In this document: positions 5,810-25,009 of the stretch, in pieces
Layout: each line of letters starts with the position of its first letter
How positions within the stretch are numbered: the stretch's first letter is position 1
Source: Acidobacteriota bacterium
GTDB taxonomy: Bacteria; Actinomycetota; Acidimicrobiia; Acidimicrobiales; CADCSY01
Reading direction: 5' to 3'
Length of the DNA stretch: 33,273 nt
Assembly (NCBI GenBank): GCA_019510095.1
Contig: JAEKLB010000064.1
Coordinates: 1 to 33,273 of the forward strand
Translations under genes and position numbers: made by a program
The notes under the pieces: generated by a model
Told to the model about the DNA's origin: nothing
What the model saw: the letters and a program-made list of their open reading frames with translations, nothing else
Database searches by the model: none

Positions 5810-6714
5810 CAGCGCAGGCCGCGGAGGTAGGCGACGATGGCGTCGAGCTGGGCACGGGAGAGGGGCACCGCTGGCATGAGGGCCCCTCGCTTGAGCGACT
5901 GCGGGTCGGTGATCCATGCCCGGAGCTCAGCCGCAGTGTTGTCGACGGTGTCGCCGGCGAGGGTCTGCCGGCTGGCGAGATGGGTCAGGTCGGGACCCTT
6001 CGTGCCGACCGCCTCGGTGCCGCGCACGGTGTGGCATCCCGCGCACGCCGACTGCTCGAACACCGTGCGGCCGGTGGCGTCGAGCGCGCCTGCCCGCTGG
6101 CCTGCCAACCAGGTCTCGAAGCGGGCCGGGGATTCGGCCACCAGCAGGAAGTGCATCTTGGCATGCTCGAGGCCGCAGTACTCCGCGCACAGACCCTGGT
6201 ACACACCTGCCTGGCGCACGGTGAAGCGCAGGTCGTTGTGTTGGCCGGGGATCAGGTCGACCTTCCCGGCCAGGTCGGGAAGCCAGAACGAGTGGGTGAC
6301 GTTGTCGGAGTCGAGCCCGATGTCGAGGGGCCGGCCGACCGGCACATGGATCTCGTTCGCGGTCACGACCCCGGTGCCCGGGTAACGAACGTCCCACCAC
6401 CAGCGCCGGCCGACGACCTCGACGCGGAGCTCGTCGGGCTTCCTGATCCGAAGGTGGGCGGTGGCGTCGACGGTGGCAACGGCGACGACCAGGAGCACGA
6501 CGACGGGGAGGGCGACGCCGCCGGCGGCGATCCACCAGTCGTCACCCAGTGACGAGGGCCCGGGCCGGCGCACCAGGGCGACGACCACGAGACCGACGAC
6601 GACGATCACCACGACGACGGCCAGCCCGAGCAGCAACCACCAGACCCCCACCAGGCGGTGGCTCTCGGAGCCGTCGCCGTGCAGGATGGACGGGCCGGCG
6701 GCGGCGAGGAGCAT
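5809..6714 (-). CDS. ctaC: Cytochrome c oxidase subunit II with fused cytochrome c domain
   Basis: Subunit II, 301 residues. Two transmembrane helices (about 23-48 and 60-82) anchor a cupredoxin domain with a complete CuA site: H141, then C176, E178, C180, H184 and M187 in CAEYCGLEHAKM. A cytochrome c domain follows, with CAGCH at 224-228 and a probable axial methionine M280 (GALMP). This is the caa3 arrangement, in which electrons pass from the fused heme c to CuA. There is no lipobox; the N-terminal hydrophobic stretch is short. The ATG at 6714 overlaps the qcrA stop (TGATG); a GTG one codon upstream is possible. It sits between qcrA and ctaD in one row. Confidence 0.95.
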
Positions 6715-7544
6715 CACCGGGTCCAGAACCCCGGGCCGACGGGTGTGGGGAAGTCGCCGGTGGCGCGGAGCACGCCGTCGCTGCCGATGCGGATCGGCAG
6801 CTGCGGAAGGGGTGAGGCGGCGGGACCGAACACCGGCTCGGCCCCGTGCAGCACGTCGAAGGCCGACTGGTGGCAGGGGCACAGGAGCTGATGCAGCTCG
6901 GCCTGGTACAGGCCGACCGGGCAACCGGCATGGGTGCAGACCTTCGAGTACACGATCAGCCCGTCAGGCGACCAGGTCTCGCGTCCCGGAGCCGGTTCGA
7001 GGAGCTCGACCGGCACCCGCATGAGCACTGCCTGCCCATCGGCGGCGTCGACGTGGCCTTCGGGGAACACGGTGAGCAGTCCATCGGTGGGGACGTCGTC
7101 GGCGCGCACCGGTGTCCCGTCCTCGGTCACGACACGAAGGCCGTCGCGCCACGGTGTGTGGTTCAAGGCCGCGCCCGGCTTGGGGCCCAGCGATCGGAGC
7201 GGGAAGAGGGCGGCCAGGCCGAGCGCGCCGGCGGCCAGAGCGAGGCCTCGCCACAGCAGAGTGCGTCGTTCGAGGACCTGGTCGCGGTCGAAGGCCGCCT
7301 CAGCTGCGATCCGCTCCCGTTCGGAGTTCGCCAGGGCGTGGCGGGACTCGGCGAAGGTGCCCTGGTGGAGCAGCTTGTTGGCCCAGGCGACCAGAGCGAA
7401 GCCGATGGCAGCAAAGGCGGTCGCCAGCAGCAGGCCTTCCAGCTGGGTCTGGCCCCCCTGCCAGTACACGGCACCGAGGGCGAGGCCGGCGGCGGCCGCC
7501 GCGCAGAAGGCGGTGAAGGCGATCAGCTCCCAGCGGCGGCTCAC
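6714..7544 (-). CDS. qcrA: Rieske iron-sulfur subunit of the cytochrome bc1 complex (QcrA)
   Basis: 276 residues from a GTG at 7544 that overlaps the qcrC stop (GTGA). Three hydrophobic helices (about 8-28, 36-56, 97-117) precede the Rieske domain, the actinobacterial QcrA plan with extra N-terminal helices. The 2Fe-2S ligands are C203 and H205 (KVCTHAGC) and C222 and H225 (CPCHQSAFD), with C208 and C224 forming the expected disulfide. It takes an electron from quinol at the Qo site of QcrB and passes it to QcrC. Longer upstream frames are Arg/Gly-rich shadow sequence and were rejected. Confidence 0.93.
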   Translation of the reverse strand: MSRRWELIAFTAFCAAAAAGLALGAVYWQGGQTQLEGLLLATAFAAIGFALVAWANKLLHQGTFAESRHALANSERERIAAEAAFDRDQVLERRTLLWRGLALAAGALGLAALFPLRSLGPKPGAALNHTPWRDGLRVVTEDGTPVRADDVPTDGLLTVFPEGHVDAADGQAVLMRVPVELLEPAPGRETWSPDGLIVYSKVCTHAGCPVGLYQAELHQLLCPCHQSAFDVLHGAEPVFGPAASPLPQLPIRIGSDGVLRATGDFPTPVGPGFWTR

Positions 7545-8302
7545 GACCGCTCGCCGATCCAACGGGTGGCGGCGAGCAGGATGGGCAACGCCACGCCGAG
7601 CGCGATCAGGCCTTCGGCGAAGGGCCCGAGATGCCAGAGCGGGTTCCCGCCAGGGTCCTTGCTGTGGTCGAGCTCGTTGACGTAGGCGACAACGTCGGCG
7701 ACCTGGCGGTCTGACAGGGCCGCTTGCCCAAAGGCCGGCATGTTGCCCGACCCCGCCCGGATGACGGCGGCGACCTCGATGCGGGATGCCGCATGGATGC
7801 TCGGCGCCTCGCGCTCGAAGAGGGCCCCACCTTCGCCCGACCAGGCGTGGCATGCGGCGCAGTCGAGCCGGTAGAGCTCGCCGCCAGCGGCGACGTCGGC
7901 GCGGGGGCTCACCTCGGGGATGGTGGGGCCGGTGTCGCCGGTGAGGCGGGCAACCTCATCGACGAGGGCGGCGATGGTGGCCGGCGAGTATGCCGGCGCC
8001 GCCCGTCTCGGCGTGGCGCGCGCATCGGCGAGGGGCATGCGGCCACTGGCCAGCTGGAAGTACACCGACGCTCGGCCGACGCCGCGCAGGGTCGGGGCCA
8101 GCTCGGTGCCTTGTCCGGCGGTGCCATGGCAGTACGAGCAGTCGGCCCGAAACAGCTGGCCGGCGCCGTCCCCGGCACCTGGGGCGGCCGCGCTGCGGCT
8201 GGGCGCGTTGACGACCAGAGCGAAGGCGAGGGCAGCGATGCCTGCGGCGAGCCCTCCGACCCGGGACGCGGGTCGGGGGCGAGAGCGCGGCGCCACCCTC
8301 AC
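7541..8302 (-). CDS. qcrC: Diheme cytochrome c subunit of the bc1 complex (QcrC)
   Basis: 253 residues with an N-terminal signal or anchor helix (about 15-33), two cytochrome c domains with CSYCH at 55-59 and CAACH at 148-152, probable axial methionines M89 (GRMP) and M188 (GNMP), and a C-terminal transmembrane helix (about 228-247). This is the actinobacterial QcrC layout. The GTG at 8302 is preceded by GGCGGGTAGGG; a second GTG two codons later is equally possible. The start lies 11 bp after the GH15 stop, so the respiratory block may be read through from the genes upstream. It is coupled to qcrA by GTGA. Confidence 0.92.
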   Translation of the reverse strand: MRVAPRSRPRPASRVGGLAAGIAALAFALVVNAPSRSAAAPGAGDGAGQLFRADCSYCHGTAGQGTELAPTLRGVGRASVYFQLASGRMPLADARATPRRAAPAYSPATIAALVDEVARLTGDTGPTIPEVSPRADVAAGGELYRLDCAACHAWSGEGGALFEREAPSIHAASRIEVAAVIRAGSGNMPAFGQAALSDRQVADVVAYVNELDHSKDPGGNPLWHLGPFAEGLIALGVALPILLAATRWIGERS

Positions 8303-20986: not shown

Positions 20987-21718
20987 ATGCCACGTCGCAC
21001 GACGGTCGAGGACATCGGCATCCCGCTCGGAGCGCTCGGCGCCCTCGCGGTCTCGGGCGCCCTGGTCGGCGTGCGCGGCGAGATCCAGCCCGAGGTCACC
21101 GCCCTCGCCCTCGCCGTCGTCGTGGCCTTGGCCGGGAGACTGGCCGGCCGCGGCGCCGGCATCAGCGCCGCGCTGATGGCGGCCGCCAGCTTCGACTTCA
21201 TGCACACCCAGCCCTACCTCTCCTTGAAGATCGCCAACTCGACGGACGCGCTCACCACCGTGCTGCTCCTCCTCGTCGGCATCGTCGTCGGGGACCTTGC
21301 CTCGCGGGCCGGCCGCGACCGCCGCCGCGCCCACGCATTGCGGTCTGACCCGGTCGGCATCAGCCGCGTACTCGAGGTGGCCCGAGGCACCAGCCCCGAA
21401 GACGTCGAGGCGTCCGTGCGGGCGGAGCTTCTCGGCCTGCTCCAGCTCCGCGACTGCTGGTTCACGCCAGACGAAGTGCGTCTCCCGGTGATCGGACCGT
21501 GGGGAGAGCTCGACCTACCGCACAAGCGGTTCGTGCGCGACGGCTTCGAGCTCCCGCTCGACGGCGTCGCCATTGACGTCACCGCCTACGGACGCCGATA
21601 CGGCTACCTCGTGTGCCAACCCGAATCAGGCGTCGGCGTCACCATCGAGCGGCGCCGGGTCGCCGCCGAGCTGGGCAACGTGCTCGGCCTGGCGCTGGGA
21701 GCCAGCGCGGCTGCCTGA
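20987..21718 (+). CDS. KdpD-like membrane sensor without kinase domain
   Basis: 243 residues. The N-terminal half has hydrophobic helices of the DUF4118 type. FDFMHTQPYLSLKIANSTDA followed by LTTVLLLLVGIVVGDLASR parallels the KdpD segment encoded at about 14,850-14,950 on the other strand (WYFTPPFHTFTIANSRDS, then a helix ending in VDLASRRR). The C-terminal half (about 125-240) looks like a small GAF-like sensory domain ending in an alpha helix. No HisKA, ATPase, Walker A or universal-stress domain is present. It is transcribed away from the kdp row. It may tune KdpD by pairing or sense the same signal; this is inference. The reading frame is intact, so it does not look like a decayed kdpD. 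Confidence 0.75.
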   Translation: MPRRTTVEDIGIPLGALGALAVSGALVGVRGEIQPEVTALALAVVVALAGRLAGRGAGISAALMAAASFDFMHTQPYLSLKIANSTDALTTVLLLLVGIVVGDLASRAGRDRRRAHALRSDPVGISRVLEVARGTSPEDVEASVRAELLGLLQLRDCWFTPDEVRLPVIGPWGELDLPHKRFVRDGFELPLDGVAIDVTAYGRRYGYLVCQPESGVGVTIERRRVAAELGNVLGLALGASAAA

Positions 21719-21824: not shown

Positions 21825-21851
21825 TGGTGGTCTAGCCAAAGGGGGGCTCGG

Positions 21852-23021
21852 ATGCGCCAGTACCAGTACGTGTCGACCGACTCGCACCTCGAGCAGCCGC
21901 CGGAGCAGTGGCGGCCGTACGTCGACAAGGAGTTCCAGGACTGGGTGCCGAGGACCATCACCCTCGACAACGGTGGCCAGGGCCTGTACTTCCCGACCGA
22001 GGGCGACGGCGGCGACCCGTCGGGCGCCGGCGCCACTGTCGTGCCGCTCGGCCTCCAGTACGTGAGCACCGTCGGGGGCGACACCGCCAAGGTGGCGGCC
22101 AACCGCTGGAAGACGGCCGGGCCGACCGGGCACCGCTACCGCCACGCCGACGGCACACCGCTGCTGGGCTGCGGCACGGGTGCCGAGCGCATCGCCGAGA
22201 TGGACGTCGACGGCATCGATGCCGACGTGCTGTTCCCGGCCGTGTTCGGTGGCCGTGCGCTCAAGGACGTGCCCCGAGAGGCGCACGTCGCCCTCTGCCG
22301 TGGCTACAACGACTGGCTCTCGCAGGACTACACGGCCGCGGACCCCGATCGGCTCTGGGGCCTCGCCCTCGTGCCGCCGCAGGTCGAGGACGCCATCGAG
22401 GAGATGACCCGCGTGAAGGGGATGCCCGGCATCTACGCGGTGGCGGGCTGGCCCGTGGTCGACAAGGACGACGACCGCTTCTGGCAGGCAGCACTCGACC
22501 TGGACATGCCGCTCACGACCCACGGTGCCGGCGCGGCGCCGAGCGGGGTGGCGTGGCCGCCCGCCGACAAGGCGGAAAACATGCCCGTCGGTGCGTCCCG
22601 AGGCACCGTAGGCACCCAGCTCATCCTCTCGGGCGTGCTCGACCGCCTCCCCGAGCTCCACTTCTTCTTCGCCGAGACCGGGATCGGCTGGCTGCCGTTC
22701 ACCTACCAGGTGCTCGACGACCTCCACGAGCGCCACAACCTGTGGAGCGACGCCACGCTCACCAAGGCGCCGAGCGACTACTTCAAGAAGCACTTCCACT
22801 GGAGCTTCATGGTCGACCGCCTCGGCATCGAGCGCCGGCACGAGATCGGGCTCAGCCAGATCATGTGGTCGACCGACTTCCCGCACATGAACACCGACTG
22901 GCCCGAGTCGCGCAAGGTCATCGACGAGGAGTTCGTGGGCATTCCGGAGGCCGACGTCAATGCGATCGTGCGCGACAACGCGCTCGACTACTTCAAGGTC
23001 CGTGAGGTGGCGGCGGCATGA
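21852..23021 (+). CDS. Amidohydrolase-2 family protein, apparently active
   Basis: 389-residue TIM-barrel hydrolase or decarboxylase of the ACMSD-related amidohydrolase-2 family. Probable metal and catalytic residues are all present: D10 and H12 (STDSHLE), H224 (TTHGAG), E275 (FFAETGIGW), and D342 with H345 (STDFPH). AAAGGGGGG at 21838-21846 gives a strong ribosome binding site 5 nt before the ATG. Members act on carboxylates, lactones or aromatic acids; the substrate here is unknown. The stop overlaps the start of a paralogue (ATGA), so the two proteins are probably made together. Confidence 0.88.
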   Translation: MRQYQYVSTDSHLEQPPEQWRPYVDKEFQDWVPRTITLDNGGQGLYFPTEGDGGDPSGAGATVVPLGLQYVSTVGGDTAKVAANRWKTAGPTGHRYRHADGTPLLGCGTGAERIAEMDVDGIDADVLFPAVFGGRALKDVPREAHVALCRGYNDWLSQDYTAADPDRLWGLALVPPQVEDAIEEMTRVKGMPGIYAVAGWPVVDKDDDRFWQAALDLDMPLTTHGAGAAPSGVAWPPADKAENMPVGASRGTVGTQLILSGVLDRLPELHFFFAETGIGWLPFTYQVLDDLHERHNLWSDATLTKAPSDYFKKHFHWSFMVDRLGIERRHEIGLSQIMWSTDFPHMNTDWPESRKVIDEEFVGIPEADVNAIVRDNALDYFKVREVAAA

Positions 23022-24019
23022 CGAGCTACAACGCGATCTCCGCGTCCTCCCACCTCGAGGTCGGGAGCGACGTGTGGCGTGACCACGTGGCGGCCGAGCA
23101 CCGCGACGCGGTCCCGGCGATCGACCTCCGCGCCGACGCCGCGCCCTCCGGGGGCGACCCGCAGGCGCGCCTGGCCGAGATGGACCGCGATGGTGTCGAC
23201 GCCGAGGTGCTGTTCCCCGCCGCCATCGGGAGCCGGAGCTTCTCCTCGATCGAGTCCGAGGCCCAGATGGCAGCCACCCGTGGCTACAACGACTGGCTGT
23301 CGGAGGAGTTCTGCAGCGCGGCGCCAGACCGCCTCCTCGGCGTCGCCCTCCTGCCGGCCACGCGCGTACAGGACGCCGTCGACGAGATCACCCGGCTGAA
23401 GTCGATGCCTGGCATCCGCGCCGTGATCCTCCAGCAGTGGCCCAACGGCAGCGGGGCGCCCATCCCGGCCGACGACCGGTTCTGGGAGGCTGCAGTCGAC
23501 CTCGACATGCCGCTCGTGGCCTGGCGGACCTTCGGCGGCGGCTCGGCGGCGGCGCCGCGGCCGCCGAGCACACCGCCACCCATGCCGCTGGCCCTGACGC
23601 TCTGCACCGGCTCGTGCACCACGCAGAGCCAGCTCATCTACGACGGCGTGTTCGACCGCTTCCCGTCGCTGCAGATCCTCTTCGCCGGCCTGGGCGCGGG
23701 CTGGGTCCTGAACCAGATCGAGCAGGCCGACGACATGTTCCGTCGGCATCGCTTCTGGGGTGGCTATGCCGCCGACCAGACCCAGGCGAACTACTTCCCC
23801 AAGCACTGTAAGTGGACGTTCACCCGCGATGCCCTCGGCGTCAGCCAGCGCCACGAGATCGGCCTCGACAACGTGCTGTGGTCGAGCAACTTCCCGCACG
23901 AGGACAACGACTTCCCGGAGTCGCGCCAGCAGCTCGACAAGCAGCTGGCGGGCCTCCCGGCCGACGAGGCCCGCGCCCTGGCGGCCGGCAACGCCGTCAA
24001 CTTCTTCCGCCTGTCCTAG
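23018..24019 (+). CDS. Amidohydrolase-2 paralogue lacking catalytic residues
   Basis: 333 residues, clearly homologous to the preceding protein along its length (for example RGYNDWLS, DEITRLKSMPGI, DRFWEAAVDLDMPL, RHEIGL, NFPHEDNDFPESR). The likely active-site positions are changed: D10 to S10 (SASSHLE), H224 to W169 (LVAWRT), E275 to G224 (LFAGLGAGW), and D342 to N291 (SSNFPH). Only the histidine after the first position and the PH histidine remain. A Pro-rich insert replaces the loop around 175-190. The frame is intact and coupled by ATGA to its partner. It may be a regulatory or structural subunit of a heteromer, or have a metal-independent role. Confidence 0.85.
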   Translation: MTSYNAISASSHLEVGSDVWRDHVAAEHRDAVPAIDLRADAAPSGGDPQARLAEMDRDGVDAEVLFPAAIGSRSFSSIESEAQMAATRGYNDWLSEEFCSAAPDRLLGVALLPATRVQDAVDEITRLKSMPGIRAVILQQWPNGSGAPIPADDRFWEAAVDLDMPLVAWRTFGGGSAAAPRPPSTPPPMPLALTLCTGSCTTQSQLIYDGVFDRFPSLQILFAGLGAGWVLNQIEQADDMFRRHRFWGGYAADQTQANYFPKHCKWTFTRDALGVSQRHEIGLDNVLWSSNFPHEDNDFPESRQQLDKQLAGLPADEARALAAGNAVNFFRLS

Positions 24020-24149: not shown

Positions 24150-24560
24150 CTATGACGCGTTTCGCTGCAACAGCTCGATGGTGTTGCCCTCGGGGTCTTC
24201 GATGAAGGCCACGAGCGAGTCCCCAAAGCTGGTCGGCGGCATCTGGACCCTTCCGCCGGCTTCCTCCACCCCGACGACCGCCCCGCGCACGTCTTCGACG
24301 TAGATGGCCATGTAGCGGATCCCGGTCGCCGAGGTGTTGCCGCCTCGCGGGTTGACGGCCTCCGGCACCTTGTCGAACCCAGCCAGCTTGATGTGACCGA
24401 CGCCCACGGCGAAGGTCCACGTGTGGGCACCCCGGGAGGGGAAATGCCGCTCATCGGTGAGCGGAAAGCCGAGGAAGTCGCGATAGAAGGCGACGAGCTT
24501 CTCGGGATCTCGGGCGGTGAGCCCCACGTCCAGTGCCGGATCGACCATCTTGAGAGCCAT
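24150..24560 (-). CDS. VOC superfamily protein (glyoxalase/dioxygenase fold), copy 1
   Basis: 136-residue single-unit VOC protein with two beta-alpha-beta-beta-beta modules: GLTARDPEKLVAFYRDFLGF in the first and RYMAIYVEDV to DPEGNTIELLQ in the second. The C-terminal glutamate of the metal site is present (IELL), but the usual N-terminal strand histidine is not obvious, so metal binding is uncertain. The substrate is unknown. It is a tandem duplicate of the next gene upstream. Spacing of 41 bp suggests co-transcription. Confidence 0.85.
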   Translation of the reverse strand: MALKMVDPALDVGLTARDPEKLVAFYRDFLGFPLTDERHFPSRGAHTWTFAVGVGHIKLAGFDKVPEAVNPRGGNTSATGIRYMAIYVEDVRGAVVGVEEAGGRVQMPPTSFGDSLVAFIEDPEGNTIELLQRNAS

Positions 24561-24601: not shown

Positions 24602-25009
24602 CTACTCGCCCGGCTGCAACAGCTCGATGCAGTTGCCTTCGGGATCTTCGATGAAGACCACGAGCGAGGTCCCGTACTCGGCCAGCGGCCGCTGAATCCT
24701 TCCGCCCGCCTCCTCCAACCCGACGATCGCCTCGCGCGCGTCTTCGACGAACAGGGTGATGTAGCGGATGCCGGTCGCCGAGGTGTTGCCGCCTGGCGGG
24801 TTGGCGGCCGCCGGCACCTTGTCGAACCCAAGCACCTTGAGGTGGTCGACGCCCACGGCGAAGTACCACATGTGGGCCCCCGGGGCGGGGAAGTGCCGCT
24901 CATCGGTGAGCGGCAAGCCGAGGAAGTCGCGGTAGAACGCGACGAGCCGCTCGGGATCTCGGGCGGTGATCCCGAAGTCCACTGATTGTTTGGCGAGCCT
25001 TAGTGCCAT
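24602..25009 (-). CDS. VOC superfamily protein, copy 2
   Basis: 135-residue paralogue of the downstream VOC gene. Long identical stretches include LVAFYRDFLG, PLTDERHFP, NTSATGIRY and DPEGN-IELLQ. Differences cluster in residues 1-12, around 48-58 and around 105-113, which may change ligand preference. The ATG at 25009 was chosen because the sequence before it is also conserved with the other copy. No recognised function beyond the fold. Confidence 0.85.
   Translation of the reverse strand: MALRLAKQSVDFGITARDPERLVAFYRDFLGLPLTDERHFPAPGAHMWYFAVGVDHLKVLGFDKVPAAANPPGGNTSATGIRYITLFVEDAREAIVGLEEAGGRIQRPLAEYGTSLVVFIEDPEGNCIELLQPGE

Follow-up and report, generated by a model that had tools for sequence, protein, structure and literature searches.

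Two PF04909 amidohydrolase genes lie in tandem on the forward strand of the window, the 33,273-nucleotide stretch of DNA analysed here. P1 (21852..23021, +) encodes a 389-aa protein that carries six of six metal ligands and is the putative catalytic subunit, and P2 (23018..24019, +) encodes a 333-aa paralogue in which four of the six are gone, the putative pseudo-subunit. The P1 stop and the P2 start share an ATGA (23018..23021, +), a 4-bp overlap that fits translational coupling. Within the terminal part of P1, a Shine-Dalgarno-like GAGGTGG (23004..23010, +) can be read 7 nt ahead of the P2 start codon, and a purine-rich, Shine-Dalgarno-like AAGGGGGGC (21839..21847, +) precedes the start of P1. 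Coordinates, frames and the ATGA overlap proved exact on rechecking. Both proteins scored above the PF04909 (Amidohydro_2) gathering score of 26.4 bits (P1, 69.2 bits, 6.5e-19; P2, 91.7 bits, 9.4e-26), while no NCBIfam model matched either. Their alignment gave 42% identity over 284 aa, and the genome search 46%, confirming the description of the pair in the first-pass annotation as two overlapping paralogues.

The surroundings of P1-P2 form no obvious pathway: upstream of P1 lie kdp potassium-transport genes and a DUF4118 protein, and downstream, on the opposite strand, two glyoxalase-fold proteins. The DUF4118 gene (20987-21718, +) encodes a 243-aa protein whose sole domain is a KdpD-type DUF4118 membrane domain, and it is divergent from the kdp operon, which includes a full KdpD. 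The glyoxalase/VOC-fold genes (24150-24560 and 24602-25009, both on the reverse strand) are closely similar tandem paralogues, convergent to P1-P2. No Rieske ferredoxin or flavin reductase is encoded adjacent to the pair or in its operon; the sole Rieske protein of the window (6714-7853) is QcrA-like and sits beside cytochrome oxidase genes. A scan for promoters and terminators found none, and a viral scan gave no match.

P1 contains the complete ligand set D10, H12, H224, E275, D342 and H345, the equivalents of the AibH2 dinuclear site (D25, H27, H211, E265, D337 and H340; PMC7782822). At the same six sites P2 has S10, H12, W169, G224, N291 and H294, so that only H12 and H294, the counterparts of P1 H12 and H345, are kept. 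The codons bear out each of the four replacements originally proposed: S10 is TCC (23045..23047, +) where P1 D10 is GAC, W169 is TGG (23522..23524, +) where H224 is CAC, G224 is GGC (23687..23689, +) where E275 is GAG, and N291 is AAC (23888..23890, +) where D342 is GAC. With about eight nucleotide differences spread over four separate codons, sequencing error was ruled out as their source. In a 50-member family alignment that includes P1 and P2, all 48 other members have D/H/H/E/D/H at these sites. P2 nevertheless retains 34 of the 38 other near-invariant positions covered, against four of six ligands lost (Fisher p 0.007), and its ligand loss exceeds chance drift.

The search was widened to 146 homologous family ORFs from all loci and 25 PF04909 matches from the same genome. 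Among the other complete homologues (about 140, plus the paralogues of this genome), none had lost any of the six ligands; incomplete sets occurred only in truncated ORFs, and every ORF spanning the sites had all six. The possibility, raised in the first-pass annotation as a potential refutation, that the P2 residues are normal for a different catalytic subfamily was thereby ruled out within the 146 family ORFs and the 25 own-genome matches, as they recurred in no subfamily examined. The claim that P2 is a pseudoenzyme, resting on the loss of four metal ligands seen in no other complete homologue examined, is thus well supported at the level of sequence comparison.

P2 is also 62 residues shorter than P1 between P33 and the column of P1 R113/P2 R51, after strand 1. 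In the P1 model the corresponding insert (residues 34-112; 21951..22187, +) folds into strands and a helix, and according to the alignment and predicted secondary structure it is reduced to 17 residues in P2. Before the P-S-x-Y motif, P2 carries Q254 at a site occupied by R or K in 37 of 48 relatives. Mapped by offset and not structurally, this region would correspond to the AibH1 residues that touch AibH2. Charge swapping between the equivalents of AibH2 D342 and AibH1 K282 was considered and rejected, the alignment columns showing no clear covariation.

By sequence profile the closest solved structures were PtmU3 (6e-67) and DitZ (4e-59), followed by the AibH2/SfbO group and decarboxylases. 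P2 was predicted as a complete TIM barrel of the family (pLDDT 89, pTM 0.90), a prediction that leans on the family alignment, and its model matched DitZ (Z 30.2), PtmU3 (29.6) and the AibH1H2 chains (about 27) best. In two trees P1 and P2 fell into one small clade (support 98/91 and 100/98) with L037, from the Actinomycetes MAG ZJ3.bin39, and L116/L121, from another MAG of the class. Branching order inside this clade is poorly supported; P2 is placed, weakly, outside P1 plus L037/L116/L121, and trees with P1 and P2 as sisters are statistically acceptable (p-AU 0.387). A recent tandem duplication is therefore unsupported, and gene conversion was likewise set aside, because windowed identities rise only mildly in mid-gene.

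A single metagenome-assembled genome is the only one known to carry the P1-P2 pair. About 1,700 genome searches, whose draws overlapped and took in 11 members of its family, yielded no orthologue of P2, and neither did 115 confirmed loci from the named genome collection, which leaves conservation of the pair unproven; among the plasmid matches listed, only relatives of 27-32% appeared. The closest homologues (L037, L116 and L121) have all ligands intact and are not in tandem, suggesting that P1-type proteins generally need no such partner. The genome itself has 25 PF04909 matches in 2.9 Mb. The right end of its contig C137 (L147/L151) encodes the C-terminal 72 residues of a third P1-clade member, closely resembling L116/L121 (DFPHVQCDWP); the same genome thus also has an intact-looking relative.

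P1 has the six ligands of AibH2/PtmU3-type dinuclear oxygenases, whereas P2, with two, lacks this signature. An acidic residue two positions after the last His has been tied to the second metal (PMC7782822); this position is D or E in dinuclear relatives (AibH2 D342, PtmU3 E313) and N347 in P1, with A or Q in the nearest P1 relatives. We therefore call P1 PtmU3/AibH2-like and stop short of classing it as a proven dinuclear oxygenase. Among own-genome PF04909 matches covering the site, the acidic residue is present except in P1 and the C137 fragment. P1 is probably a metal enzyme of the PtmU3/DitZ/AibH2 branch and would act as a (di)metal oxygenase on a small acid or CoA ester. Genes for CoA-transferase III adjoin L116 and L121, and PtmU3 acts on CoA-ligated substrates (PMC7782822), which together hint at acyl-CoA substrates. 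At L122 and L123, genes of the L116/L121 type abut or overlap genes for CoA-transferase III, among which one encodes a double-domain protein.

Eleven other tandem PF04909 pairs were present in the fetched loci (L016, L021, L058, L060, L065, L067, L068, L098 and L125, and also L019 and L091), and all their complete members keep the six ligands. In nine of the eleven, the position two residues after the last His is D or E in exactly one member and G, V or T in its partner, the same difference that separates AibH2 from AibH1; several of the eleven pairs are mutually related, so the nine are not independent events. These residues suggest that asymmetric pairs are common in PF04909 and that asymmetric heteromers are perhaps widespread.

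A rival reading takes P2 for a disappearing duplicate, its activity lost recently and its frame open by chance. Such decay would agree with its occurrence in one genome only, and an open frame is weak evidence in DNA this rich in GC: neutral simulations left the frame free of stops in 1-49% of runs, depending on settings, and we discarded the stop-codon simulation as proof of selection. Other measures point the opposite way. Tajima relative-rate tests with 20 outgroups revealed no faster evolution of P2 (lowest p 0.075), and its branch length was 0.81, compared with 1.19 for P1. Retention of the consensus, ligands excluded, rose with conservation class as 0.17/0.38/0.57/0.82 in P2 and 0.23/0.34/0.55/0.84 in P1. 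GC by codon position was 0.685, 0.502 and 0.946 in P2 and 0.686, 0.452 and 0.946 in P1, whereas GC-biased neutral simulations with large change drove GC2 to 0.55-0.64. The changes are not randomly distributed: seven or eight nucleotides differ in the ligand codons, compared with four changes across the 38 other conserved sites. Selection acting on P2 is supported by these data, and decay is improbable. In agreement with the first-pass annotation, P2 does not behave as a decaying duplicate: relative rates are equal, site-by-site constraint resembles that of P1, GC3 is 0.946 in both genes, the frame is intact, and the protein is predicted as a complete barrel.

P2 could instead act alone, as a ligand-binding homo-oligomer or a metal-independent enzyme that reuses the barrel. 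It has preserved the fold and the majority of conserved positions, certain PF04909 members reportedly work without a cofactor (PMC10811679), and the P2 branch arose no later than the lineages of L037 and L116/L121, leaving time for a new role. However, W169 is expected to occupy the metal site, and together with the loss of the 62-residue insert this points to a pocket that has closed up instead of being remodelled. The metal-independent relative LigI reportedly uses an aspartate as general base at the strand-8 position where P2 has N291, and the gene overlap ties P2 to P1. A stand-alone function is on balance unlikely, with a minor but real chance of being correct. Another possibility is that each protein has a function of its own, the two genes being co-transcribed to serve one pathway, and that P2 affects P1 only indirectly, perhaps by buffering a substrate or as a regulator. 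Related genomes contain many tandem PF04909 genes, not all of which need encode complexes; yet the intact ligands in both members of the other tandem pairs make P2 different in kind, and its sibling fold makes mixed oligomers likely, which leaves independence quite improbable.

As P2 is otherwise as conserved as P1 despite its ligand loss, it is probably a non-catalytic partner subunit. We favour, with somewhat better than even confidence, a model in which P1 is the metal enzyme, PtmU3/AibH2-like, and P2 its pseudo-subunit, folded and in all likelihood devoid of metal. P2 would be made in step with P1 through the overlapping genes and would take the place of one protomer in an ancestral oligomer. 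Itself non-catalytic, it would play the AibH1 part for P1: from its side of the subunit interface it would support the conformation of the P1 pocket and metal loop (strand 8, D342-x-x-H345), the role proposed for AibH1 toward AibH2. The coupled genes, the ligand loss, the constraint on P2 and its predicted fold are results of this analysis, whereas a P1-P2 complex, its proposed role and the suggested P1 reaction are inferred.

The closest precedent for P1-P2 is AibH1H2, the 2-aminoisobutyrate hydroxylase of Rhodococcus wratislaviensis (PDB 6M1W, 8FUL-8FUO). Two PF04909 proteins, each required in vivo, make up this heterotetramer; AibH1 is non-catalytic and carries a mononuclear site, and activity is lost in a host missing either AibH1 or AibH2 (PMC7782822, PMC10401708). 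The AibH2 metal loop contacts AibH1 at the interface (review, PMC12141560). In both systems adjacent PF04909 paralogues are found, one with a six-ligand site and the other non-catalytic or, for P2, apparently so; in P1-P2 the ATGA overlap fits co-translation and the ligand loss marks the putative non-catalytic member. This precedent, together with translational coupling, makes a P1-P2 heteromer plausible; the first-pass annotation proposed that it would be obligate. The systems also differ. AibH1 and AibH2 are 28% identical, P1 and P2 42-46%; AibH1 has five ligands and one metal, important for its folding, while P2 has two ligands, too few of its own to build even a mononuclear site, and is expected to be metal-free; AibH1H2 has the redox genes AibF/AibG, and no such genes adjoin P1-P2; and the position of AibH2 D342 is N347 in P1. 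The ligand counts, P1 N347, P2 Q254 and the missing adjacent ferredoxin or reductase call for caution in equating P1-P2 with AibH1H2.

PF04909 comprises more than 100,000 proteins, mostly uncharacterised (PMC10811679), and the role of AibH1 in its one known heteromer has been called elusive in the literature. With a partner unable to hold metal, what the second subunit does structurally could be told apart from anything its metal does. Should the members of tandem pairs usually form heteromers, expression of single genes from them would often yield dead or insoluble protein. Tentatively, P2 may be an entirely metal-free partner of an oxygenase-type PF04909 enzyme, the two having evolved apart from AibH1H2. 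Taken with the many tandem pairs in which a single member has the residue linked to a dinuclear site, asymmetric heteromers would then be a recurring PF04909 architecture and not one curiosity.

Among other known systems, PtmU3 (PDB 6OMP) and DitZ (PDB 8UYR) share the ligand set of P1 and are nearest to P2 by fold. PtmU3 has been reported without an auxiliary subunit and has the acid E313 where P1 has N347. To our knowledge, no pseudo-partner exists for PtmU3 or DitZ. The use of a catalytically dead paralogue as a required partner, as proposed here for P2, is established in prozyme-type activators such as trypanosome AdoMetDC/prozyme and the deoxyhypusine synthase pair (PMC5201418, PMC3663545). 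These pairs are eukaryotic and unrelated to P1-P2 in fold and chemistry, the analogy being one of mechanism only. The proposed P1-P2 design has one close known precedent, AibH1H2, to which a metal-free pseudo-subunit would add a new aspect.
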